Assembly (NCBI RefSeq): GCF_900631955.1 | Contig: NZ_UZWD01000009.1 | Coordinates: forward strand, 62,001 to 126,000 | Direction of reading: 5' to 3' | Length of the DNA: 64,000 nt | Source: Devosia equisanguinis | Lineage (GTDB): Bacteria; Pseudomonadota; Alphaproteobacteria; Rhizobiales; Devosiaceae | Shown: in pieces, positions 1 through 31,612 of the stretch | Numbering within the stretch: the first letter of the stretch is position 1 | Layout: every line of letters starts with the position of its first letter | Program-made: the position numbers and the translations under genes | Notes under the pieces: model-generated | What the model was told of the DNA's origin: nothing | What the model saw: only the letters and a program-made list of their open reading frames with translations | The model's database searches: none

Positions 1-1338
1 CAGCCAGGCCAAGACATCGGGGTCGAGCAGGCGCCAAGACGCACGCGGGGCCACGCGGGTGCCCGCACGCGGCGCGGCGGTGATCAATCCCTTGGCCGCA
101 AGGGTTCGCATGGCTTCACGATATGAGCCGCGTGACACCGAAAGGTCCTCACCATCGCCTTGCTCCGGATCGAGCAAGGTGCCCGGCGGGTATTTGCCGG
201 CGACGATATCGCGTCCGATGCTATGGGCAAGGGTGCCGTGCCGTCTGGTGCGCGAGGTCAGGTGTGGGGTTTCGATGCGGTGATGGCCGTGAAAATTGCC
301 CATGAGCATGGGCAATTGCACCAACTCGTCCACGGCAATGGCTTCGATGTCTCGGCCGCCGCCCATATGCTCGAAACTGCCCGGAATGCGCGAGCGGATA
401 TATTGGACGATTGACTGCGCGGCCGCAGTGACGCTGTCGACAAAGCCGACGAAATGCAGTGCACCATGGTTGATGCCGGCCCATAGCGACAGGGTGACGT
501 CGCGACCGGCGCGGGCGAGGCCTGAGTAAAGAGCCAGCGTATCGTCGAGCAGTGGGTCGCATTCGGCGCCGATGCAGAGGGTCGGCGGGAAGTCGGCGAG
601 ATCCAGCGCCAGCGGGGTGAGGCTGTCGCGCTCTTCGACCGACAGATGCGGGGCGTAGAGGTTCCAGGCCCAGGACATCTGCTTTCTCGACAGCCCGAAG
701 CGTCCATCGCCGAACAAGATGTGCGACGACAGGTTCATGCGCGGCGAATAGGCACCGTAAATGGAAATGAAACCGGCAATCCGCGCCCGCAGGGCAGGGT
801 CGAGACGCAAAAGGGCCAGGCTCATGATCTGCGCGCCGGCGCTGTCACCGGCGGTGAATACGGGCAGGCCGGTGTCTGCGAGCAACTCTTCGATGACCCC
901 TGCCACCTGTTCTATCGCATAGGGTGCCGGCCTCTCGGGAGCGAGGGCATAGTCCACCGATATCACCCTGATGCCGCAATGCTGGGCCAGCCAGCGGCAG
1001 ATATGGTCGTGGGTTTCCACATTGCCCATCAACCAGGCCCCGCCATGGGCAAAGACCATGATCGCCCCAACCGAAGCCGGCTCGTAGACGCGAACGGCGA
1101 CCCGCGCTTTGGCACTGCCGGCTTCCCGGTCTTCGGTCCGCATCGCGGGCCGGGCCGAAGCTGGAACGATGAGCGCAGCATACTCATCGAACCAGGCGCG
1201 ATAGTCCGGCACGCTCATCACGGTGTCGTCAATGACATGCGTGACCGCCAGGTTGACGCGGTCCAGCGCCGCGGCGAGGTCGTTGGTCACCCGGGCGTCG
1301 GTGCCGCCCAGGCTGGTCCTGCTGATTAACAATGCCAT
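1..1338 (-). CDS. Alpha/beta-hydrolase fused to GntR (FadR-type) DNA-binding domain, partial at window edge
   Basis: The frame from the ATG at 1338 stays open to base 1 (446 codons) and continues outside the window. Residues about 80-315 are a hormone-sensitive-lipase-type alpha/beta-hydrolase: HGG oxyanion motif (98-100), GDSAG nucleophile elbow (164-168), Asp261 and His291, so a full catalytic set is present. After a linker of about 45 residues, residues 364-446 read as a winged-helix GntR domain of the FadR type, with SVSRGSYREAMRTLAAKGLI and the LLDPDVLAW segment also seen in the GntR regulator at 30848-31612. The ligand-binding FCD domain would lie beyond the edge. It starts 19 nt after the permease stop, so it is probably the last gene of the sugar ABC operon. 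An internal ATG (309 or 303) could start a separate regulator, but no stop separates the two parts and no strong ribosome site precedes it. Confidence 0.8.
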   Translation of the reverse strand, partial: MALLISRTSLGGTDARVTNDLAAALDRVNLAVTHVIDDTVMSVPDYRAWFDEYAALIVPASARPAMRTEDREAGSAKARVAVRVYEPASVGAIMVFAHGGAWLMGNVETHDHICRWLAQHCGIRVISVDYALAPERPAPYAIEQVAGVIEELLADTGLPVFTAGDSAGAQIMSLALLRLDPALRARIAGFISIYGAYSPRMNLSSHILFGDGRFGLSRKQMSWAWNLYAPHLSVEERDSLTPLALDLADFPPTLCIGAECDPLLDDTLALYSGLARAGRDVTLSLWAGINHGALHFVGFVDSVTAAAQSIVQYIRSRIPGSFEHMGGGRDIEAIAVDELVQLPMLMGNFHGHHRIETPHLTSRTRRHGTLAHSIGRDIVAGKYPPGTLLDPEQGDGEDLSVSRGSYREAMRTLAAKGLITAAPRAGTRVAPRASWRLLDPDVLAWL

Positions 1339-1357: not shown

Positions 1358-2368
1358 CTAACGCCGCGCGAATCGGCGCTTGCGCTGCACCTGGTCAAAG
1401 GCCACCGCGACCACCAGGATGACCCCGATGAAGATGTTCTGGTAGAGCGGATTGACGTTGACCACAGCCAGGCCGTTGTTGAGCACGGCAAACAGAAGCG
1501 TGCCAAGCGCCGTTCCGATAATAGAACCGGTGCCGCCGAAGAGGCTGGTACCGCCGATGATGATGGCGGTGATCACCTGGAAGGTGAGGGCCGAACCGCC
1601 AGCTGCCGGCGAGGCTGTACTGGTGCGCGCCATGAACATGATGCCAGCCAGAGCCGCGGTGGCGCCCGAAAGCGCATAAAGCTGCAGATCGAGCAGTTTC
1701 ACCCGCACGCCATTGGCCGATGCGGCCAGCCGGTTGCCGCCGGTAATCCGGGTTTCGTAGCCGAACACGGTGTGTTCCAGCAGGACGTGGAACACGATGC
1801 CGAAGATGACGGCATAGTAGACGAGGAAGGGAATGCCGAAGAGGCGACCCTGGCCCAGCACGTTGAAAGCGTCCGGAAAGCCGAAAAGATTGGTGCCACC
1901 GGTATAGACGGTGATGGCGCCGCCAATGGCAAAGAACGAGCCCAAGGTGGCAATCAGCGGTGGCACTTCGAATCGGGTAATCACCAGCGCATTGATGGCG
2001 CCGGCAAGCGCCCCCGCTCCGACCCCGAGCAGCAGAGCCAGCGGCCAGGGGAGCCCGGCCAGCATCAGCCCGCCGGCAACAATGCCCCCGAGCGGAAAGG
2101 CGGCGCCCGCGGAAAAGTCGAGCCCGCCGCCGACCAGAACCAGGGTGGCGCCACAGGCAACGATGAAATAGAGCGCGCCCGAGCGGAAAATCTCGATGAT
2201 ATTGCCCTGGCTCAGGAACACCGGGTTGAGAATCTGAAAGATGATGGCGATGAGGATGATGACGGCAAAGAGGCCGCCATTCTGCATCAGCCCGGTGAGA
2301 CGGCCACGCGCAGTGGTTTCCGAATCCAGCGAAGCGGTCGCTGCGACAGCGTCGGCATTACTTGCCAT
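1358..2368 (-). CDS. Sugar ABC transporter permease (RbsC/FrcC family)
   Basis: A 336-residue inner-membrane protein of the BPD_transp_2 family. It forms the channel for a monosaccharide importer with the ATPase and binding protein encoded just upstream. A hydrophilic N-terminus of about 35 residues is followed by about nine hydrophobic segments. The conserved PPLIATLGSFF and IIIGGTSLFGGTGSIIGTALG-type loops are visible. The start at 2368 is chosen because it overlaps the ATPase stop by 11 nt and begins the natural N-terminus; longer readings extend into a shadow frame of the ATPase. The substrate is not readable from sequence. Confidence 0.9.
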   Translation of the reverse strand: MASNADAVAATASLDSETTARGRLTGLMQNGGLFAVIILIAIIFQILNPVFLSQGNIIEIFRSGALYFIVACGATLVLVGGGLDFSAGAAFPLGGIVAGGLMLAGLPWPLALLLGVGAGALAGAINALVITRFEVPPLIATLGSFFAIGGAITVYTGGTNLFGFPDAFNVLGQGRLFGIPFLVYYAVIFGIVFHVLLEHTVFGYETRITGGNRLAASANGVRVKLLDLQLYALSGATAALAGIMFMARTSTASPAAGGSALTFQVITAIIIGGTSLFGGTGSIIGTALGTLLFAVLNNGLAVVNVNPLYQNIFIGVILVVAVAFDQVQRKRRFARR

Positions 2369-3134
2369 CGGAAGCTCCGGTGATGAGAGAAATGACTTCG
2401 TTGCGATCGGTCTGGCTGATGCTGCGCACACCAGCCACGCGGCCAAGACGCATGACCTGAACGCGGTCGGCCACATCGAACACAAAGCCCATATCGTGGC
2501 TGATGCAGATGACGGCGCAGCCCCGGTCCCGCAGCGAGCGAATGAGATTGGCGGCGTGGGCGGTTTCCCTGACGCCGAGAGCTGCCGTGGGCTCATCGAG
2601 CAGGATGACATTGGCGCCGGTACGCATGGCGCGCGCAATGGCAACGATCTGGCGTTGTCCGCCCGACAGCATGCCGATCGGCGTGCGAACCGACTTTACG
2701 GTGACCTTGAGCTCGTTGAGGAAAGAACGCGTCTCGCGCTCCATGCGGCCGCGGTCGACGAACCAGCCGCGACGCGGCAATTGGCCGATATACATATTGG
2801 TGGCAACATCCAGAACCTCGACCAGAGCGAGGTCCTGGAACACGGTGGCGATACCGGCCTGGCGGGCATCGGCGGGCGAACGAAACTGGCGGGCTTCGCC
2901 ATTGACCACGATGGTTCCGGTATCGGGACGGTGCACGCCGCTGATGGTCTTGATCAGCGTCGACTTGCCGGCGCCATTGTCGCCGACCACCGCCAGGATT
3001 TCGCCCGGGGCCACTTCGAGGTCGACATCGGTCAGGGCCTGGACCTGACCGAAGGACTTGGAAATACCCGCGAGCGAAAGGCCCCCGGCATTGCTGCCGG
3101 TGGCCTGATGGTGGGGGACCGCTTCAGCGATCAC
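2358..3134 (-). CDS. Sugar ABC transporter ATP-binding protein, single domain (FrcA-like)
   Basis: A 258-residue ATPase that powers the adjacent permease. Walker A GDNGAGKST is at 51-59, the Q-loop VFQD near 98-101, signature LSGGQRQ at 156-162, Walker B ILLDEP at 177-182 and the switch His at 213. It has one nucleotide-binding domain, as in fructose-type FrcA, not the double-domain RbsA arrangement seen in the next operon. The start overlaps the binding-protein stop by ATGA, indicating translational coupling. Confidence 0.92.
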   Translation of the reverse strand: MIAEAVPHHQATGSNAGGLSLAGISKSFGQVQALTDVDLEVAPGEILAVVGDNGAGKSTLIKTISGVHRPDTGTIVVNGEARQFRSPADARQAGIATVFQDLALVEVLDVATNMYIGQLPRRGWFVDRGRMERETRSFLNELKVTVKSVRTPIGMLSGGQRQIVAIARAMRTGANVILLDEPTAALGVRETAHAANLIRSLRDRGCAVICISHDMGFVFDVADRVQVMRLGRVAGVRSISQTDRNEVISLITGASDGK

Positions 3135-4048
3135 TGTTCTGCCTCGAGGTTTTCGGAGGTGACGAAGGTGATGCCGGTGTCGATGTTCTTCGGCACGCTC
3201 TCGCCCTTGGACAGCTTGACGATGGCGTCGACCGCACCGGAGGCCATGCCGCAGAAATTCTGCTTGCTGGTGCCGTAGATCGTGCCTTCCTTGATGCCGG
3301 CCACGACTTCGGGGGTGATGTCGTTGACCACGGCGACGACCTTGCCGACCAGGTCCTTTTCCTTGATGGCCGTGGTGATGCCGGAGACGATATTGCCTTC
3401 CCAGGACAGCACGACATTGGCTTCCGGATGGGCGGTCAGAGCGCGGGAAACCACGTCGACGGTCTGGGCCGGATCGCCCTGGTCATAGGCCTCGACCACG
3501 AGCTTGACGTTCGGATAGGCCTCGGCGCCCTTGAGGAAGCCGTCCACGAAAACGCGGTGCACGCCGGTGGGCTGATTGCCCACGATGATGACGTTCTGCT
3601 CGCCCTCGCGCTTGGCCAGGTTCTCGGCGACCAGTGCACCCTGATTGGCGTAGTCGGTGCCCAGTTGCACATCCTGGGTAGAGGTGGTGTCGCCCGTGTT
3701 CAGGGTGACCACCCACATGCCCTTTTCCTTGGCTTCCTTCATCAGCGGCTCATACATCGGCCCGTCGATCGGCACGACGATCAAGGCGTTGGAGCCGGTG
3801 GCGATATATTGCGAGATGCGGTCGAGCACGAACTGGTTGTCGACCTGCAGGCCGGTCGGGCCCGAAGTTTGCCCCTTGATGCCGGCAGCGGCAATGGCGT
3901 CGTTGAAGCATTTGTCCGCCTCGGCCCAGACCGGATAGGCGGGCAGGGGATTGGCAAAGCCAATGCTCAGCTGATCCTGCGCCAAGCTCGTGCCGCACAG
4001 GCATGCGGATGCAATCAGGGCGGACAGCGCCCAGCGACCAAATTTCAT
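3131..4048 (-). CDS. Periplasmic sugar-binding protein (Peripla_BP_4 family)
   Basis: A 305-residue exported substrate-binding protein. Residues 1-22 are a signal peptide ending near SLAQ. The mature part is a two-lobe fold of the ribose/galactose-binding type, with the ANPLPAYPVW first strand and the IVVPIDGP segment typical of the family. A strong AGGGAGGAA ribosome site precedes the ATG at 4048. It is the first gene of a four-gene operon (binding protein, ATPase, permease, hydrolase-GntR fusion). The 224-nt upstream region carries operator-like boxes. The ligand is probably a monosaccharide or polyol. Confidence 0.9.
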   Translation of the reverse strand: MKFGRWALSALIASACLCGTSLAQDQLSIGFANPLPAYPVWAEADKCFNDAIAAAGIKGQTSGPTGLQVDNQFVLDRISQYIATGSNALIVVPIDGPMYEPLMKEAKEKGMWVVTLNTGDTTSTQDVQLGTDYANQGALVAENLAKREGEQNVIIVGNQPTGVHRVFVDGFLKGAEAYPNVKLVVEAYDQGDPAQTVDVVSRALTAHPEANVVLSWEGNIVSGITTAIKEKDLVGKVVAVVNDITPEVVAGIKEGTIYGTSKQNFCGMASGAVDAIVKLSKGESVPKNIDTGITFVTSENLEAEQ

Positions 4049-4081
4049 GATTTCCTCCCTTGGCGAAACCGCCGGGAGCAA

Positions 4082-4183
4082 ACTAATTACAATTTTTTGA
4101 CACGCGCAAGCCAAAAAAGCAGACTAATTAGCCGATGAGTGCCGATGTGATCTCCAACGGTGTCAAATTAGTTGGACTAATTG
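4082..4183. promoter_or_regulatory. Three ACTAATT boxes including a perfect ATTAGT-N3-ACTAAT operator
   Basis: Upstream of the binding-protein gene, ACTAATT occurs at 4082-4088, 4123-4129 and 4176-4182. The last is the right arm of a perfect inverted repeat, ATTAGT-TGG-ACTAAT (4167-4181), flanked by GTCAA and TTGAC. The spacing resembles FadR/GntR-type operators of the form NNGT-N3-ACNN, but ROK regulators also bind A/T-rich boxes of this kind. The cognate regulator is inferred to be the downstream GntR fusion or an external factor. Confidence 0.6.
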
Positions 4184-4220
4184 ACCGTAGGCGACGTCTC
4201 AGTGCGTGGCGTGTGGTGCA

Positions 4221-4253
4221 AAAACAAAAAAGGGGCACCCGAAGGCGCCCCTT
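4221..4253 (-). terminator. Rho-independent terminator of the second sugar ABC operon
   Basis: Read on the minus strand, GGGGCGCC-TTCG-GGTGCCCC forms an 8-bp stem with a UUCG tetraloop (one G-U pair) and is followed by TTTTTTGTTTT. It lies just after the binding-protein stop at 4273. Confidence 0.9.
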
Positions 4254-4272
4254 GGTCCTCGTTGGGAAGGAC

Positions 4273-5403
4273 TTACTGGCTGCCGCCCCAGGCCTGGGGG
4301 TAGTTCGGCATGTCTTCGCAGCCGCACATGGCATAGTGCAGGGGCGGCATTTTTTCGTTGATGTACTGGTCCAGCACGTCCTGGGTGATCACCGGCTGGG
4401 GCAGGACCCATTCCGGACCGGGGACCTGTTCGCCCTTGAGCGTGTTCACAGCAGCGATGATGGCCGTGCGCCACTGATAGGTCGGGTAGGTCGGGGCGAC
4501 GCCCTTGAAGCCGATATCGCGCCACTTCTGCAGGTAATCCTGCTGGTCTTCGCCGGTGACCACCGGGACATCGAAGCCCTGGTCTTCGAAAGCCTCGACA
4601 GCGGCAACGGCGGTGGCGCCGGCATCCATCCACACCGCGTCGATGGCGCCGCGCTGCAGATAGTCTTCCACGATCGATTTGGTCTTGGCGTTGTCGCCGC
4701 CGGTGAACTCTTCGCCCAGAATGGTGAGGCCGGCTTCCTTGAACATGTTGCGGGCGCCCGAAGCGCGGGTCTCCAGCACGTCAACGCCGGGCGAGATGCG
4801 CAGCATCAACACCTTGCCGCCCGAGGCGACATTGGCGATGACGTGATCGGCTGCCTGGATGCCGAAGCCGTAGCCGCCCACCGGATGCACGAAGGTCACC
4901 GGGCAATTGGTGGTGACACCGCGGTCGAAGACGATAACAGGCAGGCCGGCCGCACAGGCCTTTTCGACCGCGGGAGTCAGCGCTGCAGTGGAGTTCGGCG
5001 AGACGATCAGCACATCGCAATTGCCGCCCGCCAAGAGGTCGTCGATATCGGCGATCTGCTTGTCGTCGGAACCTTCGGCGTCGACATGGGTGAAGGTGCC
5101 GATCTCGGGATGCAGCTTCACTTCCTCGGTCATGTCGGTATAGCCGACCACGCGCCAGGGATTGTTGACCCCTGCATTGGAGAAGCAGACGGTCCAGGGC
5201 GCATCCTTCTTGAAGCCGGAGGTGTCGACCATCGCCTCGCCCGCATATTGCAGGTAGGGCTTGTCGGCCGGGCCGTTGAAGGCGCCCGTCAGCTGTTCGC
5301 GCTGCTTGGCGAACTCGGCCGGGTCATCGAAATTCGGCGCCTGGGCAAAGCTGGCGCCGGTCAGCATGCCCAGAACGGCAGCTGCCAGGATGGTTTTCTT
5401 CAC
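4273..5403 (-). CDS. Periplasmic sugar-binding protein (ribose-type ABC importer)
   Basis: A 376-residue exported binding protein with a signal peptide ending near GASFAQ (about residue 20). The fold is Peripla_BP_4, including VIVFDRGV and the TGEDQQDYLQKW segment near the C-terminal lobe. A Cys-Gly-Cys sits near the C-terminus. The start is GTG at 5403, preceded by GAGGGAGGA; longer frames read into a shadow of the permease. It is the last gene of an operon whose order is epimerase, ATPase, permease, permease, binding protein, and it ends at a strong terminator. Confidence 0.9.
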   Translation of the reverse strand: MKKTILAAAVLGMLTGASFAQAPNFDDPAEFAKQREQLTGAFNGPADKPYLQYAGEAMVDTSGFKKDAPWTVCFSNAGVNNPWRVVGYTDMTEEVKLHPEIGTFTHVDAEGSDDKQIADIDDLLAGGNCDVLIVSPNSTAALTPAVEKACAAGLPVIVFDRGVTTNCPVTFVHPVGGYGFGIQAADHVIANVASGGKVLMLRISPGVDVLETRASGARNMFKEAGLTILGEEFTGGDNAKTKSIVEDYLQRGAIDAVWMDAGATAVAAVEAFEDQGFDVPVVTGEDQQDYLQKWRDIGFKGVAPTYPTYQWRTAIIAAVNTLKGEQVPGPEWVLPQPVITQDVLDQYINEKMPPLHYAMCGCEDMPNYPQAWGGSQ

Positions 5404-5470
5404 GGTATCCTCCCTCGTGAGATTGTCAGACCTTGTGGTGACGGGCAGCCCGGGGGCCGCGCGCCTGCGC

Positions 5471-6457
5471 TCATCGGCCGCCGCGTCGCCGCTGATAGGT
5501 GGCGAAAGCCACGGCACCGATGAGAATGAGTCCCTGCACCACCAACCGGACCGGCTGCGCCAGTCCCAGGAGGTTGAGCAGGGTGAAGATGGCTTCGAGC
5601 GCCAGGGCGCCAGCGATGGTGGCGGGCACCGAGCCGCGCCCACCGAGCAATTGTGCGCCCCCGATCACCGCGGCCGTGATGGCCTGCAATTCGAAACCCG
5701 AGCCGATATTGACCGAAACGCCGGCCCGGCCGCCGAGGATCACACCCGCCAAAACTGCGGTGAGCGAAGAGACGACGAAGGCGGAGATGCGAATGCGTTC
5801 CACCGGAACGCCGGCAAGGCGCGCCGCCTGCTGGTTGTCGCCCACCGCATGCAGCAGGCGCCCGAAATTGGTGCGATGCAGGCCCCACCACAGGATGGCG
5901 CCGAAGACCACGAGGCAGATGACTGCGATGGGCAGGATGCTGATAACCGGCAGGTCGGCAATGTTGTAGCGGCCGAAGAAGCGGAAGGTGTCGGGCAGAT
6001 AGCCGCGTGGTGCGCCGCCGGACCACATGAAGGCAACGCCATTGAGCGAGATCATCATGCCCAGCGTCGCGATCAGCGAGGGCACTTTCAAATAGCTGAC
6101 CACCAGGCCGTTGATGACCCCGATCACCACGCCAATGCCCAGCATCAGCGGAATGATCCAATAGGTGGAATTGGGATCGTTGCTGGCGAGCATGGAGGAG
6201 CCGATGACAGTCAGCGTCATGGTCGAGCCGACGCTGAGATCAAAGCCACCCGAGATGATGACATAGAGCGCGCCACCCGAGAGAATGGCGAGCGCAGCCA
6301 CGCGCTTGAGATAATTCATGTAACCGGTGGGCTCGCCAAAGGCCGGGTTCATCACCACGATGGCCAGGATAAGCACCACGACGAGTATGTAGACCGGGTT
6401 GATCTGCGGCAGGCGACGGCGCGGCTCGGCGCCCTGGGAAAGAACGTCCTGGGTCAT
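5471..6457 (-). CDS. Sugar ABC transporter permease (RbsC family), second permease
   Basis: A 328-residue BPD_transp_2 inner-membrane permease with about nine hydrophobic helices. It has the GGFDLSVGS and VPSLIATLGMM motifs of ribose/xylose-type permeases. Its ATG at 6457 overlaps the stop of the upstream permease by ATGA. Together the two permeases would form a heterodimeric channel, which is common in rhizobial sugar importers. Confidence 0.9.
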   Translation of the reverse strand: MTQDVLSQGAEPRRRLPQINPVYILVVVLILAIVVMNPAFGEPTGYMNYLKRVAALAILSGGALYVIISGGFDLSVGSTMTLTVIGSSMLASNDPNSTYWIIPLMLGIGVVIGVINGLVVSYLKVPSLIATLGMMISLNGVAFMWSGGAPRGYLPDTFRFFGRYNIADLPVISILPIAVICLVVFGAILWWGLHRTNFGRLLHAVGDNQQAARLAGVPVERIRISAFVVSSLTAVLAGVILGGRAGVSVNIGSGFELQAITAAVIGGAQLLGGRGSVPATIAGALALEAIFTLLNLLGLAQPVRLVVQGLILIGAVAFATYQRRRGGR

Positions 6458-7440
6458 GCCACCGGCCTCCTGGAACGGGCGGCATAGAAGGCAACGGCCA
6501 CCACGATGATGATGCCGCGCAGCACCTGTTTGACGAAGGCATCGACACCGAGGACGTTGAAGATGGAGTCGATCAGCGAGAAAATGATGACGCCGGCCAT
6601 GGTGCCCCAGATGCCGCCGCGTCCACCGGCCAGCACGGTGCCGCCAATGACGACGACAGCGATGGATTCGAGGTCGTAAACCCCCTCTGCACCGATCCAG
6701 GGTGCGCCGGAGCGCAGGCGCGATGCCAGGTAGATGCCGGCAATCGCGGCGCAGAGCGAGCACAGCATATGGGCGCCGATGACGACGCGCGCCGTGTTGA
6801 TGCCGGCCAGGCGGGCGGCGTCCTGATTGCCGCCCACGGCATAGATATTGGAACCGAAGCGGGTGAAGCGCAGTACGAACCAGGCGAGGCCGGCGAGCAC
6901 GAACATGAAGATAAGCGAATAGGGCACGATCCCCACCGCGCCGTAGGCGAAGATCTGGAACTCGGCGGGCACATTGCCGGCGAAATTGTTGTAATAATAG
7001 GAGAGCACGCCCTGGATGATCAGCGACATGCCGAGCGTCGCGATCAGCGGATTGACCTCGAGCTTGCTGATGACCAGCCCGTTGATGAGCCCCACAATCG
7101 CCCCCAGCGCCAAAACTGCTGATATGGCCGGGAACATCATGGCCGGATCGCCATTCATCACCACTGATGTCACCACGGCCGACGCCGAGATCAGGCTGGC
7201 GACGGAGAGGTCGATGGAGGCAACGAGAATGGCAAAAGTCTGCCCGATCGCGGTAATGCCCAGGGTGATCGAGCGTCCGAGGATGGCCACGAGATTGTCG
7301 AGCGTCAGGAACCGGGTCTGTCCCAGGGCGACGATCAGCACGATATAGAGCAGGCTCGCGGCCACCAGCAGAATGGCCGAGGCGTGGCGGTCGAAACGCA
7401 GGCGGCGTGGCCTGCTGGAAGACTGGCTGATCTCGCTCAT
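6454..7440 (-). CDS. Sugar ABC transporter permease (RbsC family), first permease
   Basis: A 328-residue permease of the ribose-type family, with ASIDLSVASLIS and VNPLIATLGMSL as the conserved loops and about nine membrane segments. It overlaps the ATPase stop at its 5' end and the second permease at its 3' end by 4 nt each, so this part of the operon is tightly coupled. Confidence 0.9.
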   Translation of the reverse strand: MSEISQSSSRPRRLRFDRHASAILLVAASLLYIVLIVALGQTRFLTLDNLVAILGRSITLGITAIGQTFAILVASIDLSVASLISASAVVTSVVMNGDPAMMFPAISAVLALGAIVGLINGLVISKLEVNPLIATLGMSLIIQGVLSYYYNNFAGNVPAEFQIFAYGAVGIVPYSLIFMFVLAGLAWFVLRFTRFGSNIYAVGGNQDAARLAGINTARVVIGAHMLCSLCAAIAGIYLASRLRSGAPWIGAEGVYDLESIAVVVIGGTVLAGGRGGIWGTMAGVIIFSLIDSIFNVLGVDAFVKQVLRGIIIVVAVAFYAARSRRPVA

Positions 7441-8951
7441 GCAGCAACCCCTTGGGCCTGGCCGGTGGCGGCCAGCATCAACTCGGCCTCGGTGGCGGTG
7501 CGGTCAAAGGTGCCGGCGATGCGGCCTTCACGCATGACCACAATGCGATCCGAGGCGCCCAGAATTTCCGGCAGGTCGGACGACACCATCATGATGGCCG
7601 TGCCGGCTCGCGCCAGCTCGCGCATCAGGTGATAAATACTGGCCTTGGCGTCGACATCGATGCCACGCGTCGGCTCGATGAAGATCAGCACCTTGGGCTT
7701 GAGCGCCAGCCAGCGGGCCACAAGCGCCTTTTGTTGGTTGCCGCCGGAGAGAAAGCGCATTTCCTGCTCATAGGAAGGCGCGCGCACCTTCATGCTGTCG
7801 AGCAGCGCATCCATACCCTTAAGATCGGTGAAGCGATTGGCATCGCGTCTGCCCAGCAGTGCAGCAAAGCTGCGGGCGCTGAGCATGGCGTTGTCGCGCA
7901 CCGATTGCATCAGCACCAGCGCCTCGCCCTTGCGGTCGCCGGGCAACAGACCGATCCCGGCGCGTATGGCGTCGCGCGGCGAGCCGAAGCGCACCTCTTG
8001 GCCGTGGAGGCTGATGCTGCCGGTGGTGAGCGGGTTGGCTCCGAACAGCGCCATGGCCAGGGCACTGCGCCCGGCGCCTTGCAGGCCGGCAAAGCCGACG
8101 ATTTCGCCTGCGCGCAACTGCAGGTCGATGTTGTGCAGCGCAGAATTGCCGCCATTGCTGACGCTGAGCACAGTCTCGCCAATGTCCGCTGCGGCAGCTG
8201 GTTCCGGATAATAGGCGGCGATGTCGCGGCCTACCATGGCGCGTACGATGGCGTCGGGAGTGGGCATGTGGTCGAAACTGGCCGCGACGGTGCCGTCCTT
8301 GATGACGGTGACGCGGTCAGCCAGTCGCGTCACTTCGCGCATGCGGTGGGTGATGTAGATGACGGCCGTGCCGGAGGCGCGCAGCCGCTCCACCAGAGCG
8401 AACAGCACCTCGCATTCCGCCTCGTTCAAGGCGGCGGTTGGCTCGTCCATGACGATGACCTTGGCATTGAGCGAAAGCGCCTTGGCGATCTCGACCATCT
8501 GCTGGCTGGCGACGTCGAGATCGGCCACCAGCGTATCAGGGGTAATGCCATGACGAATGCCGAAAAGGCCAAGCACACGGCGCGTCTCTGCATCCATTGC
8601 CCGCGCATCGATCAGCCCGTGACGCCGGGGCTCACGCCCCAAAAACAGGTTCTGCGCCACCGTGCGTTCGCGCAGCAGCGAGAACTCCTGATAGATGACC
8701 GATATGCCCGCCTCGAGTGCGGCCAGTGGATGGCGGAACTGTTGCGGCTGGCCCTCGATCAGCACCTCACCCTCATCAGGTCGATAGACGCCCGACAGGA
8801 TCTTGATCAGCGTCGACTTGCCGGCGCCGTTTTCCCCGCAGAGCGCATGCACCTCGCCGCGCCGACAGCTGAACGAGACCCCGCTCAGTGCCTTGACGGC
8901 GGGGAAGGACTTCGAGATATCGCGCATCTCGATGACGGGCGCTCCGCTCAT
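7437..8951 (-). CDS. Sugar ABC transporter ATPase, two nucleotide-binding domains (RbsA/MglA family)
   Basis: A 504-residue fused ATPase. The N-terminal domain has Walker A GENGAGKST (39-47) and Walker B VIVMDEP (165-171). The C-terminal domain has the usual degenerate GLQGAGRS loop (289-296) and LSGGNQQ signature (401-407). Its Walker B reads VLIFIEP (421-427), with Ile425 where family members carry Asp; the next Glu is kept. One site in this family is normally weak, so the transporter may still work. The start overlaps the epimerase stop by ATGA. Confidence 0.92.
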   Translation of the reverse strand: MSGAPVIEMRDISKSFPAVKALSGVSFSCRRGEVHALCGENGAGKSTLIKILSGVYRPDEGEVLIEGQPQQFRHPLAALEAGISVIYQEFSLLRERTVAQNLFLGREPRRHGLIDARAMDAETRRVLGLFGIRHGITPDTLVADLDVASQQMVEIAKALSLNAKVIVMDEPTAALNEAECEVLFALVERLRASGTAVIYITHRMREVTRLADRVTVIKDGTVAASFDHMPTPDAIVRAMVGRDIAAYYPEPAAAADIGETVLSVSNGGNSALHNIDLQLRAGEIVGFAGLQGAGRSALAMALFGANPLTTGSISLHGQEVRFGSPRDAIRAGIGLLPGDRKGEALVLMQSVRDNAMLSARSFAALLGRRDANRFTDLKGMDALLDSMKVRAPSYEQEMRFLSGGNQQKALVARWLALKPKVLIFIEPTRGIDVDAKASIYHLMRELARAGTAIMMVSSDLPEILGASDRIVVMREGRIAGTFDRTATEAELMLAATGQAQGVAA

Positions 8952-9814
8952 GCCGCACGCTCCGCCCCGGCTTCGTCCCAGGTGCGGCGGATATAGGCCG
9001 CGCTTTCGGCAAACAGGGTTTCGTAATCGGGGAACAGGGGGCGCCAGACGCGGGTGGCCGCGGCAATCGCGGGCAGGCCAGCGCCAAAGGCCTCCAGCGT
9101 CACCCAGCCATCATAGCCGGAGCGGCGGACCGCTCCGAGGATGGCGGGAAAATCGATATGGCCACGCCCGGGAATGCCGCGATCATTTTCCGACACATGC
9201 ACGATGCCCACATGCGGCGCCACGGTCTCATAGGCCTGGACCTGGTCGCGGTCTTCGATATTGGCGTGGAAGGTGTCGTACATGATCCGGCAGGCCGGGT
9301 GATCAACGCGGCGCGCATAGTCACGACACTGCGTGGTGGTGTTGAGAAAATAGGTCTCGAAACGGTTGAGGTGTTCGAGGCTGAGATAGATGCCATTGGC
9401 CTGTGCCCGCTCGGCAAGAGCGCGGTGAGCCTCGGCGCCAAAGGCGAGCTCGTCCTCGGTCGGACCGGCACCGGAGAAATGGCCGATCGGGGCATGGATG
9501 GGCCCGCCGACGCTCTGCGCCCCGAGGGCGATGGCGCAATCGAGCGCCCAGTCGAGATGGTGGCGGCCCCGTTCACGCGTCTCCGCATCGTTCGAAATCG
9601 GGCTGACATCGGGGCTGGGGATAATGGAGGTCGTGCAACGCTCGAGCCCCATGGCGTCGAGCGCGCGTCCGAGCCAGGCATAGTGATCCGGATCGCCTGA
9701 CAGCACCGGCACTTCCACGCCGTCATAGCCTTCCGCCTTGATCTTTTCGATCATCGGCAGGTGCGCTTCCGTCACCAGATCGGTCAAGCACAGCAGATTG
9801 ATGCCGAGCTTCAT
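8948..9814 (-). CDS. Ketose 3-epimerase-like sugar isomerase (D-tagatose/D-psicose 3-epimerase family TIM barrel)
   Basis: A 288-residue xylose-isomerase-like TIM barrel. The likely metal ligands are Glu147, Asp180, His206 and Glu241. The surrounding blocks LEHLNRFE, YDTFHANIED and HVSENDRGIPGRGHIDF match the D-tagatose/D-allulose 3-epimerase family closely. It is the first gene of a ribose-type ABC operon, so it probably interconverts the imported ketose in the cytoplasm. A GAGGGGGAA ribosome site precedes the ATG. The exact substrate (ketohexose, ketopentose or inositol derivative) is open. Confidence 0.82.
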   Translation of the reverse strand: MKLGINLLCLTDLVTEAHLPMIEKIKAEGYDGVEVPVLSGDPDHYAWLGRALDAMGLERCTTSIIPSPDVSPISNDAETRERGRHHLDWALDCAIALGAQSVGGPIHAPIGHFSGAGPTEDELAFGAEAHRALAERAQANGIYLSLEHLNRFETYFLNTTTQCRDYARRVDHPACRIMYDTFHANIEDRDQVQAYETVAPHVGIVHVSENDRGIPGRGHIDFPAILGAVRRSGYDGWVTLEAFGAGLPAIAAATRVWRPLFPDYETLFAESAAYIRRTWDEAGAERAA

Positions 9815-10089: not shown

Positions 10090-11106
10090 ATGAATGCAGA
10101 GGCGAAGGCGCGAGCCCTCTTGCGGCCGGCGGTGTTCACCGAGCCGGGTGCGCTCATGTATGCGGGCAATTGTTCGGATCTGTATGAGGCCTCGCTGGCT
10201 GGCAAGGTGATGCTCAGCGCCTGGACGCGGCGCAAATATCCCGGACGGCCCCTGGGTGATGCACTGCCGCAGGTGCTTTCCGTCGGCGGCTGGGACGCGG
10301 CGCGCATGCAGGACTGGGGCCTCAAGGAGCACTGCAATGAGGGGGTCAAGATCGCCTATATGGCGCGCGGCAGCATGATCCTCAAAATCGACGGCCAGCG
10401 CCACGAGGTCAGCGAAGGCCAGATGTTCGTGGTCCGCCCCTGGCAATTGCACCAGTTCGGCGATCCGCATGTCGGTGCCAGCCAGATCGTTTGGGTGCTG
10501 TTCGACGTCGGCGTGCGCCGCCCGCACGAAAACTGGCTGTGGCCCGACTGGATGGCCTGGTCGGAGCGCGACATCGACCGGCTCACCACGCTGCTGTCGC
10601 GCAACGAGCAGCATGTATTGACGGCCAGCCGCGAGGTCGCGCGCACCTTCCACGACATCGCCCAGATTGTTGCTGGCAACGATGTGGTGGGCAGCGAAAC
10701 CCGGATGCGGCTTTCGATCTCGACACTGTTGTTGCAGTTCATGGAACAGCTGGAAAGCCAGTCGCCCCAGCTCGATGCCGATCTCGCCAGCTCCAAGCGT
10801 ACGGTACAGATATTCCTCGATCGCCTGTCGCATGCCTTGGACGAGGATTGGACACTGGAAAACATGGCGGCTGAATGTAGCCTGTCACGCACCCAGTTTT
10901 CCCAGCATTGCCAGGCGATCACCAATATGACGCCGGTGCGCTATCTGCAGATGATCCGCCTCGAAGCGGCCAAGCGCTGGCTGAGCGAACGCGCCAATGT
11001 CTCGGTGACCGAAATTGCTTTGGAGGCGGGCTTCACGTCCAGCCAGTATTTCGCCACCTGCTACAAGCGCCGCTTCGGCCTGACGCCGCAGGAGAGCCGG
11101 CGCTGA
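10090..11106 (+). CDS. AraC-family transcriptional regulator with N-terminal cupin-like sensor
   Basis: A 338-residue regulator divergent from the epimerase/ABC operon across a 275-nt region. Residues about 75-135 form the AraC-type sugar-binding cupin. Residues about 240-338 carry two helix-turn-helix motifs, ending in the conserved AGFTSSQYFATCYKRRFG block. The ATG at 10090 follows GGGGGAGA; the longer upstream reading has no ribosome site. It most likely activates the ribose-type operon in response to its sugar. That role is inferred from position. Confidence 0.88.
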   Translation: MNAEAKARALLRPAVFTEPGALMYAGNCSDLYEASLAGKVMLSAWTRRKYPGRPLGDALPQVLSVGGWDAARMQDWGLKEHCNEGVKIAYMARGSMILKIDGQRHEVSEGQMFVVRPWQLHQFGDPHVGASQIVWVLFDVGVRRPHENWLWPDWMAWSERDIDRLTTLLSRNEQHVLTASREVARTFHDIAQIVAGNDVVGSETRMRLSISTLLLQFMEQLESQSPQLDADLASSKRTVQIFLDRLSHALDEDWTLENMAAECSLSRTQFSQHCQAITNMTPVRYLQMIRLEAAKRWLSERANVSVTEIALEAGFTSSQYFATCYKRRFGLTPQESRR

Positions 11107-28877: not shown

Positions 28878-30050
28878 GTGAAAATCACAGCCATCACGAC
28901 CCGCGTGGTCAATGCCGAAATGCGGAACTGGGTTTTCGTCAAGGTTGAAACCGACGAGCCCGGTCTTTTCGGCTGGGGCGAGGCAACGCTCGAATGGAAG
29001 ACGCGCGCCGTTGTCGGCGCAGTCGACGACCTTACGCCGCTTCTGCTGGGCCGGGACCCGCGCGACATCGAGCAGGCGGTGCGCGTCATGACCAAGCAAA
29101 GCTTCTGGCGTCTCGGTGCAGTGGGCATGAGCGCGGTGTCAGGCATTGAGCTGGCGCTGTGGGATATCCTGGGCAAGCACCTTGATGTCCCGGTCTGGCG
29201 ACTGCTCGGTGGCAAAGTCCGCGACAAGGTGGGCGTCTACACCCATCTCGGCATGGGCGATATGCGGGCCGTCTACGAGACCGATTCCATCGACCCGATC
29301 GTTGAGCGCGCTCGCGAAGTGGTTGAAAACGGCTATCGCGCCTTCAAGGCGGTGTTTGTCCCCTATACCCACTATCACGCACCGCTGCCGCAGGTGGACA
29401 AGGTCGCCCGCATGATGGAAGCAATGCGCGCGGCCGTGGGCGATGAGATCGAGATCATGGTGGATTTCCATGGTCGCCCGGCCTCTGCCGGAGCCGCACT
29501 GGCCTATATCGAGGCCTTGGCGCCAGCGCGTCCGATGTTCGTCGAAGAACCGGTCCCACCCGCCGATTTCGAAAGCCTCAAGCGCCTCGCCGGGCAGACC
29601 AGCGTGCCGCTGGCAACCGGTGAGCGACTGATCGACCGTACCGATTTCGAAGTGCTGTTCGCGACGGGAGCCATCGATATCGTGCAGCCCGATATCTGCC
29701 ATTGTGGCGGTCTGCTCGAGGCCAAGAAAGTCGCCGCCCGTGCCGAAACGCTGGGCATCGGTGTGGCGCCGCATAACCCGCTCGGTCCCATTGCCGGCGT
29801 CGCCGCGCTGCACTTTGCCGTTTCGACCCCGAACCATGTCATCCAAGAAGAAATGGTGGGGGCAGTGCCGTGGTATTTCGATGTCGTCCAGGGCCCGATC
29901 CGCATGGTCGACGGCTTCTGGCAGGTGCCGGATGCGCCCGGTCTCGGCATCGTTGTTGACGAGACCGAATGTGCCAAGCACCCTTTCGCCCAGGAAGTCC
30001 TGCACACCCAGAACGCCGTCATGCCCGACGGCACCATCGTGGATTGGTAA
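28878..30050 (+). CDS. Enolase-superfamily sugar-acid dehydratase, D-galactonate-dehydratase-like
   Basis: A 390-residue enzyme of the mandelate racemase/muconate lactonising group. The expected magnesium ligands are Asp196, Glu223 and Glu249. His198 (in VDFHGR) and His299 (in APHNPLGP) match the two catalytic histidines of DgoD-type galactonate dehydratases. It would convert an aldonate to a 2-keto-3-deoxy acid. The GTG start at 28878 fits the natural N-terminus MKITAITT. It opens the plus-strand catabolic operon and faces the glycoside importer. Related aldonates are possible substrates. Confidence 0.82.
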   Translation: MKITAITTRVVNAEMRNWVFVKVETDEPGLFGWGEATLEWKTRAVVGAVDDLTPLLLGRDPRDIEQAVRVMTKQSFWRLGAVGMSAVSGIELALWDILGKHLDVPVWRLLGGKVRDKVGVYTHLGMGDMRAVYETDSIDPIVERAREVVENGYRAFKAVFVPYTHYHAPLPQVDKVARMMEAMRAAVGDEIEIMVDFHGRPASAGAALAYIEALAPARPMFVEEPVPPADFESLKRLAGQTSVPLATGERLIDRTDFEVLFATGAIDIVQPDICHCGGLLEAKKVAARAETLGIGVAPHNPLGPIAGVAALHFAVSTPNHVIQEEMVGAVPWYFDVVQGPIRMVDGFWQVPDAPGLGIVVDETECAKHPFAQEVLHTQNAVMPDGTIVDW

Positions 30051-30051
30051 C

Positions 30052-30813
30052 ATGCGTCTCAGCGGCAAGATCGCCATCATCACCGGAGCGGGCAGGGGTA
30101 TCGGCGCCGCCATAGCCGAGGCCTTCATGCGCGAAGGTGCCGCGGTCGTCATTGCCGAACTGGATGAGACAAGCGGCAAGGCGACTGCGGCGCGGCTTGG
30201 GGGCGCTGCCTGGTTCATCCGCACCGATGTCACTCTCAATCAGTCGGTATCCGATTGTGTGAGCCAGGTGCTCGAGCGGTATGGCCGCATCGATATTCTG
30301 GTCAACAATGCCGGGATCAATGTCTTCCACGAGCCCTTGGAAACCTCAGATGCAGAATGGCAGCGCTGCATGGCCGTCGACCTTGAAGGCGTCTGGCGCA
30401 TGTGTCGGGCAGTGCTACCTGGCATGGTGGCGCAGCAAGCCGGCAGCATCGTCAATATCGCGTCCTCCCACAGCAGCACAATCATCCCCCATACCTTCCC
30501 CTATCCGGTCGCCAAGCATGGGCTTCTGGGGCTGACGCGGGCGCTCGGGATTGAATATGCTGGCGCCAATATTCGGGTGAACGCCATTGCGCCGGGCTAT
30601 ATCGAAACCGATCTTGCGGTGGATTACTGGAACACCTTTGCCAATCCGGCGGCGGAGCGGCAGCGCACCTATGATCTGCATCCGCCCAAGCGCATCGGCA
30701 AGCCGATGGAAGTGGCGATGACGGCGGTATTTCTCGCCAGTGACGAGGCGCCGTTCATCAATGCCACATCGATTGCCATCGACGGCGGCCGCTCTGTTCT
30801 CTACCACGAATAG
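30052..30813 (+). CDS. SDR-family oxidoreductase
   Basis: A 253-residue classical short-chain dehydrogenase: TGAGRGIG cofactor loop at about 11-18, NNAG near residue 84, and the Tyr-x-x-x-Lys pair in YPVAKHG. It starts 1 nt after the dehydratase stop. In this setting it probably oxidises a sugar to its lactone or reduces a keto intermediate; the direction cannot be read from sequence. Confidence 0.87.
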   Translation: MRLSGKIAIITGAGRGIGAAIAEAFMREGAAVVIAELDETSGKATAARLGGAAWFIRTDVTLNQSVSDCVSQVLERYGRIDILVNNAGINVFHEPLETSDAEWQRCMAVDLEGVWRMCRAVLPGMVAQQAGSIVNIASSHSSTIIPHTFPYPVAKHGLLGLTRALGIEYAGANIRVNAIAPGYIETDLAVDYWNTFANPAAERQRTYDLHPPKRIGKPMEVAMTAVFLASDEAPFINATSIAIDGGRSVLYHE

Positions 30814-30847
30814 CTGTGTCGCCCTGCGTGCCGAGAAAGGTCGCCTG

Positions 30848-31612
30848 ATGATCGAGGAAACCGTCAAGCCATTGCTGAAGCCACGCGTGCATCGACACGT
30901 GGTCAAGACGCTGGCGCAACGGATCCTGGGCAATGAGATCGCGCCCGGAGCAGTCATGCCGCCCGAGCCCGATCTCTGCCTCGATTTCAATATCAGCCGC
31001 AGTGCCGTGCGCGAGGCCATCAAGGTGCTGGGCTCCAAGGGCCTGGTGACCACGCGCCCGCGAGTCGGCACGGTGGTGCAGCCACGCGAGGCCTGGAATC
31101 TGCTCGATCCCGATCTCCTTGCCTGGTCGATGGAGCTGCAGCCCAGCGCCGAGCTCGTACTCAGCCTCATCGAAGCCCGGCAGGTGATCGAACCCGCCGC
31201 CGCGCGCTTCGCTGCCCTGAGGGCCACGGCGACCGATATTGCACCCCTAGAAGATGCTTTCGCCCGCATGAGCCGGTTCAAGGCGAACCAGGATTTCGAG
31301 GCGTTCAACAAGGCCGATATCGATTTTCACACGGCGCTGCTGCGCGCCAGCGGCAACATCGTCTTCCAGCAATTGTCCAATACTATCGGTGCGGCGCTGG
31401 CCTATTCCTTCCGCCTGACCATTTCGCGGGCGCGCGAGCCAGGCGCCTCGCTGCCCAATCATGGCGAGGTCATCGACCGTATCCGCATGCGCGACAGCGA
31501 GGGTGCCTATAATTCCATGGCTCGGCTGCTCAATATCGCCATCATCGACCTTGGCATCGGCCAGGCGGCGCCGCGGCCTGCACTCGGAGACGCATATGGG
31601 CCATCTGTTTGA
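30848..31612 (+). CDS. GntR-family transcriptional regulator, FadR/FCD type
   Basis: A 254-residue regulator. The winged helix spans residues about 15-80 (ISRSAVREAIKVLGSKGLV). The C-terminal FCD domain carries the Asp/His positions used for metal or ligand binding (IDFHTALL, LPNHGEV). The LLDPDLLAW segment joining the domains is shared with the GntR part of the fusion at 1-1338. It is embedded in the catabolic operon and is the natural candidate for the twin 15-bp sites upstream. Confidence 0.88.
   Translation: MIEETVKPLLKPRVHRHVVKTLAQRILGNEIAPGAVMPPEPDLCLDFNISRSAVREAIKVLGSKGLVTTRPRVGTVVQPREAWNLLDPDLLAWSMELQPSAELVLSLIEARQVIEPAAARFAALRATATDIAPLEDAFARMSRFKANQDFEAFNKADIDFHTALLRASGNIVFQQLSNTIGAALAYSFRLTISRAREPGASLPNHGEVIDRIRMRDSEGAYNSMARLLNIAIIDLGIGQAAPRPALGDAYGPSV

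Follow-up and report, generated by a model that had tools for sequence, protein, structure and literature searches.

A gene at the edge of the window (the whole stretch of DNA that was analyzed, 64,000 nucleotides) encodes an alpha/beta hydrolase joined in a single reading frame to a GntR/FCD transcription regulator. Judged by its sequence in this and four other species, the fusion is a real, conserved architecture. It is the last gene of an ABC importer operon, and through it the cell can probably sense or process the cargo of that importer. The window corresponds to G000:C45:62001-126000 of a 4.1-Mb draft genome, and the frame could therefore be traced beyond window base 1. Its minus-strand start is the ATG at window 1338; no stop interrupts it down to window 1, and it ends in a TAG at G000:C45:61539, a stop codon that lies 461 bases outside the window. 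The single frame of at least 446 codons described in the original prediction was thus borne out and proved to be 599 amino acids long; its calculated mass is 64.4 kDa, not the approximately 70 kDa that had been expected of the product. The features of the gene, in window coordinates, are as follows.

1..1338, minus strand: first 446 codons of the fusion gene, which in full spans G000:C45:61539-63338 and encodes 599 aa
385..1338, minus strand: alpha/beta-hydrolase half, residues 1-318 (Abhydrolase_3 at 94-293)
1039..1047, minus strand: HGG, residues 98-100, oxyanion-hole motif, invariant in 5/5 fusions
835..849, minus strand: GDSAG, residues 164-168, nucleophile elbow with S166, invariant in 5/5 fusions
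556..558, minus strand: Asp261, predicted catalytic, D in 5/5 fusions
466..468, minus strand: His291, predicted catalytic, H in 5/5 fusions
271..384, minus strand: linker, residues 319-356, variable in length, Pro-rich in G086
52..231, minus strand: GntR winged helix, residues 370-429
1..18, minus strand: final six in-window codons, 441-446; FCD (458-581) is beyond the window, in L002

A Pfam scan of the window fusion protein placed Abhydrolase_3 at residues 94-293 (E=3.6e-42, exceeding the gathering score), GntR at residues 370-429 (E=3.2e-09, 36.8 bits against a cut-off of 27), and a complete FCD domain at residues 458-581 (E=6.9e-15, 56 bits against a cut-off of 24.3). Frame and Pfam together confirm that a GntR winged helix follows the hydrolase with no intervening stop, and the FCD domain that was to be sought past base 1 is present and complete. 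Pfam also finds a GntR winged helix followed by FCD in the fusions of G086, G840, and G843. The hydrolase catalytic set had been located correctly: HGG at 98-100, GDSAG at 164-168, Asp261, and His291 all stand at those positions in the translation. The hallmarks of the HSL family (Abhydrolase_3), namely, HGG, GxSAG, Asp, and His, are present in the expected order, with HGGA as the oxyanion motif of the window fusion and HGGG in G086, G412, G840, and G843. Bacterial HSL-family esterases (PDB 2yh2 and 1jji) have the same order of HGG, GDSAG, Asp, and His, and the hydrolase half matches solved HSL-family chains with E values reaching 5.1e-28. Those chains, however, stand alone at about 310 aa, whereas the hydrolase of the fusion does not.

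Could the fusion be an artefact, in which neighboring genes have lost a stop, the sequence or assembly is in error, or a normal GntR protein is started internally? The linker is poorly conserved, and it offers possible starts: two in-frame ATGs, codons 344 and 346 (window 309 and 303), have Shine-Dalgarno matches of 3/6 and 2/6, while the best linker start candidates in the window, GTG340 and TTG342, each have a 4/6 Shine-Dalgarno match. However, four other species encode the fusion in one frame, uninterrupted by a stop. Hence, the lost stop codon that had been put forward as an alternative is rejected, as is a sequencing or assembly slip. Production of a separate GntR protein from the internal starts at 309 or 303, the other alternative put forward, is unlikely as the normal state because no start codon is conserved in the linker; in the G843 homologue, no ATG, GTG, or TTG codon was found in the scanned linker stretch. 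All five fusions can begin with MALL, where we assigned the start (longer upstream open frames exist in G000 and G843). Among the matches listed from a 61-genome relatives search and a 397-genome order search, no genome had a split pair, that is, hydrolase and GntR matches within 20 kb. We regard an artefact of any of these kinds as highly improbable.

The same two-domain architecture, which we had been advised to look for in related genomes, recurs in four other species, and the carriers belong to two families, including that of the window. The four proteins are 43-50% identical to the window protein (49, 43, 50, and 47%). Full-length, one-frame matches came from G086, of the same genus (44% over residues 1-588), and from G412, of another family in the same order (50% over residues 1-592); G840 and G843 emerged from searches of the genus (2/14 genomes) and the family (3/28, including G412) of G412. 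A full-length fusion was found in 2 of 75 genomes of the window's genus and in 2 of 397 genomes of its order, the window's own genome included in both cases. The search of its family gave 2 of 136, and the first relatives search, covering 61 genomes, found the fusion in the window's own genome alone. Draws of 385 genomes from the class (E up to 1e-45) and 299 from the phylum (E up to 1e-90) each returned one genome, the window's own, and nothing else. Since the genome draws overlap, these counts are not additive. None of 15 genomes from the family of G377 carried the fusion, in a search that had no positive control. Of 1,044 matching plasmid records, 0 had a place covering 80% of the fusion query, and no fusion relative stood among 37 pattern matches in viral contigs. 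Six exact octapeptide patterns, an insensitive probe, picked out 2 loci in a contig collection of 84,980 species, both of them hydrolase matches only.

The five fusions form one clade in a tree of the GntR half (47 rows, support 100/99) and again in a tree of the hydrolase half (13 rows, support 100/100). The GntR tree groups the window copy, on a branch flagged as long, with G412 and G840 and not with the congeneric G086; the hydrolase tree leaves its placement between these two undecided.

Both the hydrolase and the regulator halves are under purifying selection, as estimated by the Nei-Gojobori method from the close pair G412-G840 (90% amino acid identity). In this pair, dN/dS is 0.08 for the hydrolase, 0.09 for the linker, 0.04 for the winged helix, 0.05 for the FCD domain, and 0.49 for the C-terminal tail, so that the two regulator domains have lower values than the hydrolase. 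Between distant members, identity is 57-67% in the hydrolase core (residues 91-318), 48-67% in the winged helix, and 37-58% in FCD; conservation of the core is thus no lower than that of the winged helix and higher than that of FCD. Residues 1-90, at the start of the hydrolase half, are only 26-43% identical between distant members. The linker aligns with gaps; there the window protein shares 6-16% identity with the other four, and the value rises to 38% for G840-G843. Since conservation is high in the domains and low in the linker, we conclude that the protein consists of two folded, constrained domains on a loose linker.

The prediction that the fusion adjoins a sugar-type ABC operon was confirmed, and the fusion is the last gene of that operon. 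On the minus strand, the order is substrate-binding protein (SBP), ATPase, permease, and fusion, and successive genes either overlap or, between the end of the permease and the start codon of the fusion, are separated by a 19-base gap.

1358..2368, minus strand: ABC importer permease, BPD_transp_2, 73% identical to that of G412; start codon chosen by us
2358..3134, minus strand: ABC importer ATPase, 75% identical to the G412 ATPase
3131..4048, minus strand: SBP, Peripla_BP_4, 75% identical to the G412 SBP
4079..4088, minus strand: half-site-like repeat AATTAGTYYR in the promoter region
4120..4129, minus strand: half-site-like repeat AATTAGTYYR in the same promoter region
4166..4182: perfect GT-N3-AC palindrome AATTAGTNNNACTAATT upstream of the operon, a candidate operator
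4230..4253, minus strand: terminator-like hairpin with a T run, by consensus match; one found, 0.9 expected in shuffles

The hairpin separates the fusion operon from the upstream SBP gene of a second importer. That importer, directly upstream on the same strand (window 4273-9814), is also of the Peripla_BP_4 type (SBP and permease- and ATPase-like frames) and is accompanied by a TIM-barrel sugar epimerase-like protein. In window 3900-4500, a search for a sigma-70-like promoter found none. Just outside the window and convergent with the fusion, translation reading shows one more sugar-type ABC set, with a DJ-1/PfpI-family gene after it (L002:7222-11454), and about 10 kb from the fusion a hydrolase of the Abhydrolase_3/BD-FAE type lies beside aldehyde- and alcohol-dehydrogenase-like genes (L002:1865-2698).

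G412 has the same four genes in identical order, flanked, by translation reading, by parE-like and DEAD-box helicase-like genes, and G840 also carries the four-gene SBP-ATPase-permease-fusion operon. An SBP orthologue (E up to 1e-60) was present in 2 of the 397 genomes of the order, G000 and G412, both of them fusion carriers, and at the same threshold none was found in plasmids. The G843 fusion and another Peripla_BP_4 SBP gene, not orthologous to that of the window, run divergently, and the SBP gene is followed by permease- and ATPase-like frames (translation reading). A glutamine-synthetase-family gene and an SBP_bac_8 protein adjoin the G843 fusion as a separate-looking cluster (L062:12264-14981). 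The G086 fusion has an FMN_dh gene on one side and, on the other, a divergent importer consisting of an SBP_bac_8 protein and a BPD_transp_1 permease. An importer therefore adjoins the fusion in all five species, and the importers are of three kinds. Because those of G086 and G843 differ in type from that of the window, a substrate common to all the fusions is unlikely. For the window SBP itself we name no substrate, because its four NCBIfam matches (rhizopine, xylose, and galactofuranose models; 42-49 bits) are far below their cut-offs of 390-510 and its PDB matches are mixed, being mostly sugar binders of many kinds.

The best solved-structure match of the C-terminal half is DgoR, the E. coli D-galactonate repressor of the FadR subfamily (PDB 7C7E, E=9.6e-26, residues 17-224 of 246). 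DgoR shares with the fusion the winged helix followed by FCD and the equivalent of His150, and it lacks the 318-aa hydrolase that stands in front. In the excerpt of PMC7674646, Asp146, His150, and His195 of DgoR are described as holding a divalent metal required for D-galactonate binding, and FadR itself is described as having no metal site. Alignment to 7C7E gives V507, H511, and Y557 as the equivalents in the window protein. At residue 507, four fusions carry V and G086 carries A, so that Asp146 is replaced in 5/5; of 42 relatives that have no hydrolase, 41 have D (among them all 12 of the nearest clade), and L012, the exception, has A. The His at 511 is common to all 47 proteins, fusions and relatives alike. 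At position 557, the Tyr of the window copy gives way to H in the other four fusions and in 41/42 relatives, and the equivalent of DgoR Arg102 is R in four fusions, L in G843, and R in 42/42 relatives. In the winged helix, R403 and R407 are R in all 47, and residue 411 is R in the fusions and mostly K in the 42 relatives. Our reading of these alignments is that the fusions have kept the DNA-binding residues and changed the chemistry of FCD. The pocket appears altered and not erased, because the equivalents of His150 (5/5), His195 (4/5), and Arg102 (4/5) are retained, and since the five fusions form one clade, loss of the metal Asp may have been a single event.

None of the 42 GntR relative loci has a same-frame BLAST match to the hydrolase half; L013 aligns into the linker of another fusion. 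In the FadR subfamily the winged helix is at the protein N terminus, whereas in 5/5 fusions hydrolase and linker precede it. A different joining is seen in L006 (G050:C13:255017-256468), a 498-aa single frame with two tandem GntR-FCD matches, apparently a head-to-tail fusion of regulators. The fusion operon holds an importer and not dgo genes. Some 28 kb away, at window 28878-31609, is a galactonate dehydratase gene (346 bits against a cut-off of 311) followed by a hydrolase-free DgoR-type GntR/FCD regulator (30854-31609), in whose translation the stretches ADIDFH and NHGEV supply the Asp and both His residues. With its metal-binding residues intact, this regulator is a useful control from the same window.

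What might the hydrolase contribute to the regulator? By a slight balance of probability, the sequences point to an enzyme-type one-component regulator, in which an HSL-family hydrolase would bind, and probably cut, an imported ester or lactone and signal through a DgoR-like GntR/FCD half to the importer operon. The importer would supply the small ester or lactone; the hydrolase domain would bind it, cutting it slowly or at a normal rate; and binding or turnover would alter the arrangement of the FCD/winged-helix dimer on its operator. With the candidate operator at 4166-4182 lying upstream of the importer genes, the operon would control itself. The hydrolase, instead of the metal-dependent FCD pocket, would take over at least part of the sensing and would account for most of the chemical recognition. 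The original suggestion that the hydrolase processes or senses the inducer is thus favored indirectly, by the intact triad, the well-conserved core, and the lost metal Asp. We assign it this role because its core and triad are conserved, it is the sole enzyme of the operon, and the metal Asp is lost. Import, the first catabolic step, and regulation would then fit in four genes, since the fused hydrolase is the only operon enzyme in G000, G412, and G840. Weighing against this reading are the low identity of the first 90 hydrolase residues, the lower dN/dS of the winged helix and FCD in the close pair, the pocket residues retained in FCD, the possibly single loss of the Asp, operator candidates that differ in sequence between members, the other importer types at G086 and G843, and the promoter search that found no sigma-70-like site. 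In a stronger version, which we think rather less likely than not, the active HSL-type hydrolase would have displaced the metal-dependent FCD pocket and become the sensor itself, so that the same polypeptide would read ester or lactone binding or cleavage at the promoter.

The strongest competing explanation is that a plain enzyme has been tethered to a product-sensing, metal-free FCD domain. Here the protein would be bifunctional, with its activities unlinked: the hydrolase would be the first catabolic enzyme, tethered for co-production, and FCD would sense the sugar-acid product in the manner of FadR, which is still a regulator although it has no metal site (PMC7674646, in excerpt). The FCD fold is intact and under purifying selection (dN/dS 0.05), most of the His150, His195, and Arg102 equivalents are retained, hydrolase-free relatives adjoin dehydratase-, lactonase-, and FMN hydroxyacid dehydrogenase-like genes (translation reading), and an FMN_dh gene adjoins the G086 fusion, all of which would suit this arrangement. 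It fits less well with the loss of the Asp146 equivalent in 5/5 fusions, with domains that remain joined in five species though split genes would suffice, and with a hydrolase core whose conservation between distant members equals or exceeds that of the winged helix. We consider it a serious contender, though one with the odds against it.

To our knowledge, enzyme-fold sensors in GntR regulators are known mainly from MocR proteins. These, including GabR and PdxR, resemble the fusion in that a GntR winged helix is joined to a sensing enzyme fold; as described in excerpts of PMC6917764 and PMC5320631, however, the MocR enzyme domain is C-terminal and of the aminotransferase fold, whereas the fusion carries an alpha/beta hydrolase at its N terminus and keeps the FCD domain in full. 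The Pfam scan detected no aminotransferase domain in the window protein, and its NCBIfam match to PdxR (26.3 bits) spans residues 370-433 only, that is, the winged helix.

Chains named acetyl esterase, 4krx and 3ga7, which we take to be Aes, are among the solved-structure matches of the hydrolase half. MalT, the partner of Aes, is a STAND-family regulator. According to the excerpted text of PMC10427625, E. coli Aes, an acetyl esterase, inhibits MalT by direct contact; in that case a related hydrolase acts on the transcription factor of a sugar regulon, but Aes and MalT are separate proteins and the fusion is one chain. Perhaps the hydrolase is likewise a built-in protein inhibitor or docking module whose catalysis is incidental? 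The NCBIfam acetyl esterase model does match the window protein, at 130.6 bits, but this is far below the equivalog cut-off of 389, and the triad is invariant over five divergent members, which docking alone would not need. We think such a role improbable.

For the favored reading, in which the hydrolase senses an imported ester or lactone, both the Aes-MalT contact and plant hormone receptors offer precedents. An HSL origin has been proposed for GID1, and DAD2 acts as hydrolase and receptor alike, as stated in the excerpt of PMC3531792. GID1 and DAD2/D14/KAI2 have the alpha/beta hydrolase fold in common with the receptor candidate of the fusion. However, the plant receptors signal via partner proteins, whereas the fusion would combine DNA binding and the receptor candidate in one bacterial chain with the triad intact. 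If the stronger version holds, in which the hydrolase has displaced the FCD pocket as sensor, the fusion would be the bacterial, single-protein equivalent of the GID1/D14 hydrolase receptors and would offer an alternative to MocR. Here another enzyme fold, its catalytic set preserved, is attached to a full FadR-type regulator whose metal site is broken; this would be a clean natural case of enzyme-to-sensor evolution, and the compact import-hydrolyze-regulate operon could act as an ester or lactone biosensor. The parts of the fusion are ordinary; it is their combination that differs from MocR and Aes-MalT. No description of a hydrolase-GntR/FCD fusion was found in the openly licensed literature, which is weak evidence of absence; in the excerpt of PMC11878206, GntR is named merely as a gene neighbor.

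The candidate operator AATTAGTNNNACTAATT is unique in the 4.1-Mb genome at zero mismatches. With up to 2 mismatches it occurs at 2 places genome-wide, against 1 for the reversed control, and so only the exact copy stands out. Within the 64-kb window, 2 copies were found with up to 3 mismatches where 0.17 was expected, a count reached by 2 of 100 shuffles. The repeat AATTAGTYYR, a pattern picked after inspection, has all three of its copies in the window in the stretch upstream of the SBP gene (0.21 expected; 0/100 shuffles). Sites of the FadR subfamily typically have a GT-AC spacing of 3, with a reported box of TKGT/ACMA (PMC4494728, in excerpt); the box of the window palindrome, TAGT/ACTA, differs from it. 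Palindrome scans and motif counts showed that the window palindrome is not common to the other fusion members, and AATTAGTNNNACTAATT is for this reason a candidate only.

As an operator shared by the family, TTGTCNGACAA could not be established: its best matches at G412, G840, G843, and G000 were reached by 40, 41, 282, and 348 of 500 shuffles, respectively, and the looser form of it was selected after the sequences had been inspected. At G086, TTGTCNGACAA occurs as a perfect palindrome on either side of the fusion gene's start, at L056:10384-10394 and 10529-10539; these two copies, separated by 145 bp, are likely an operator pair.
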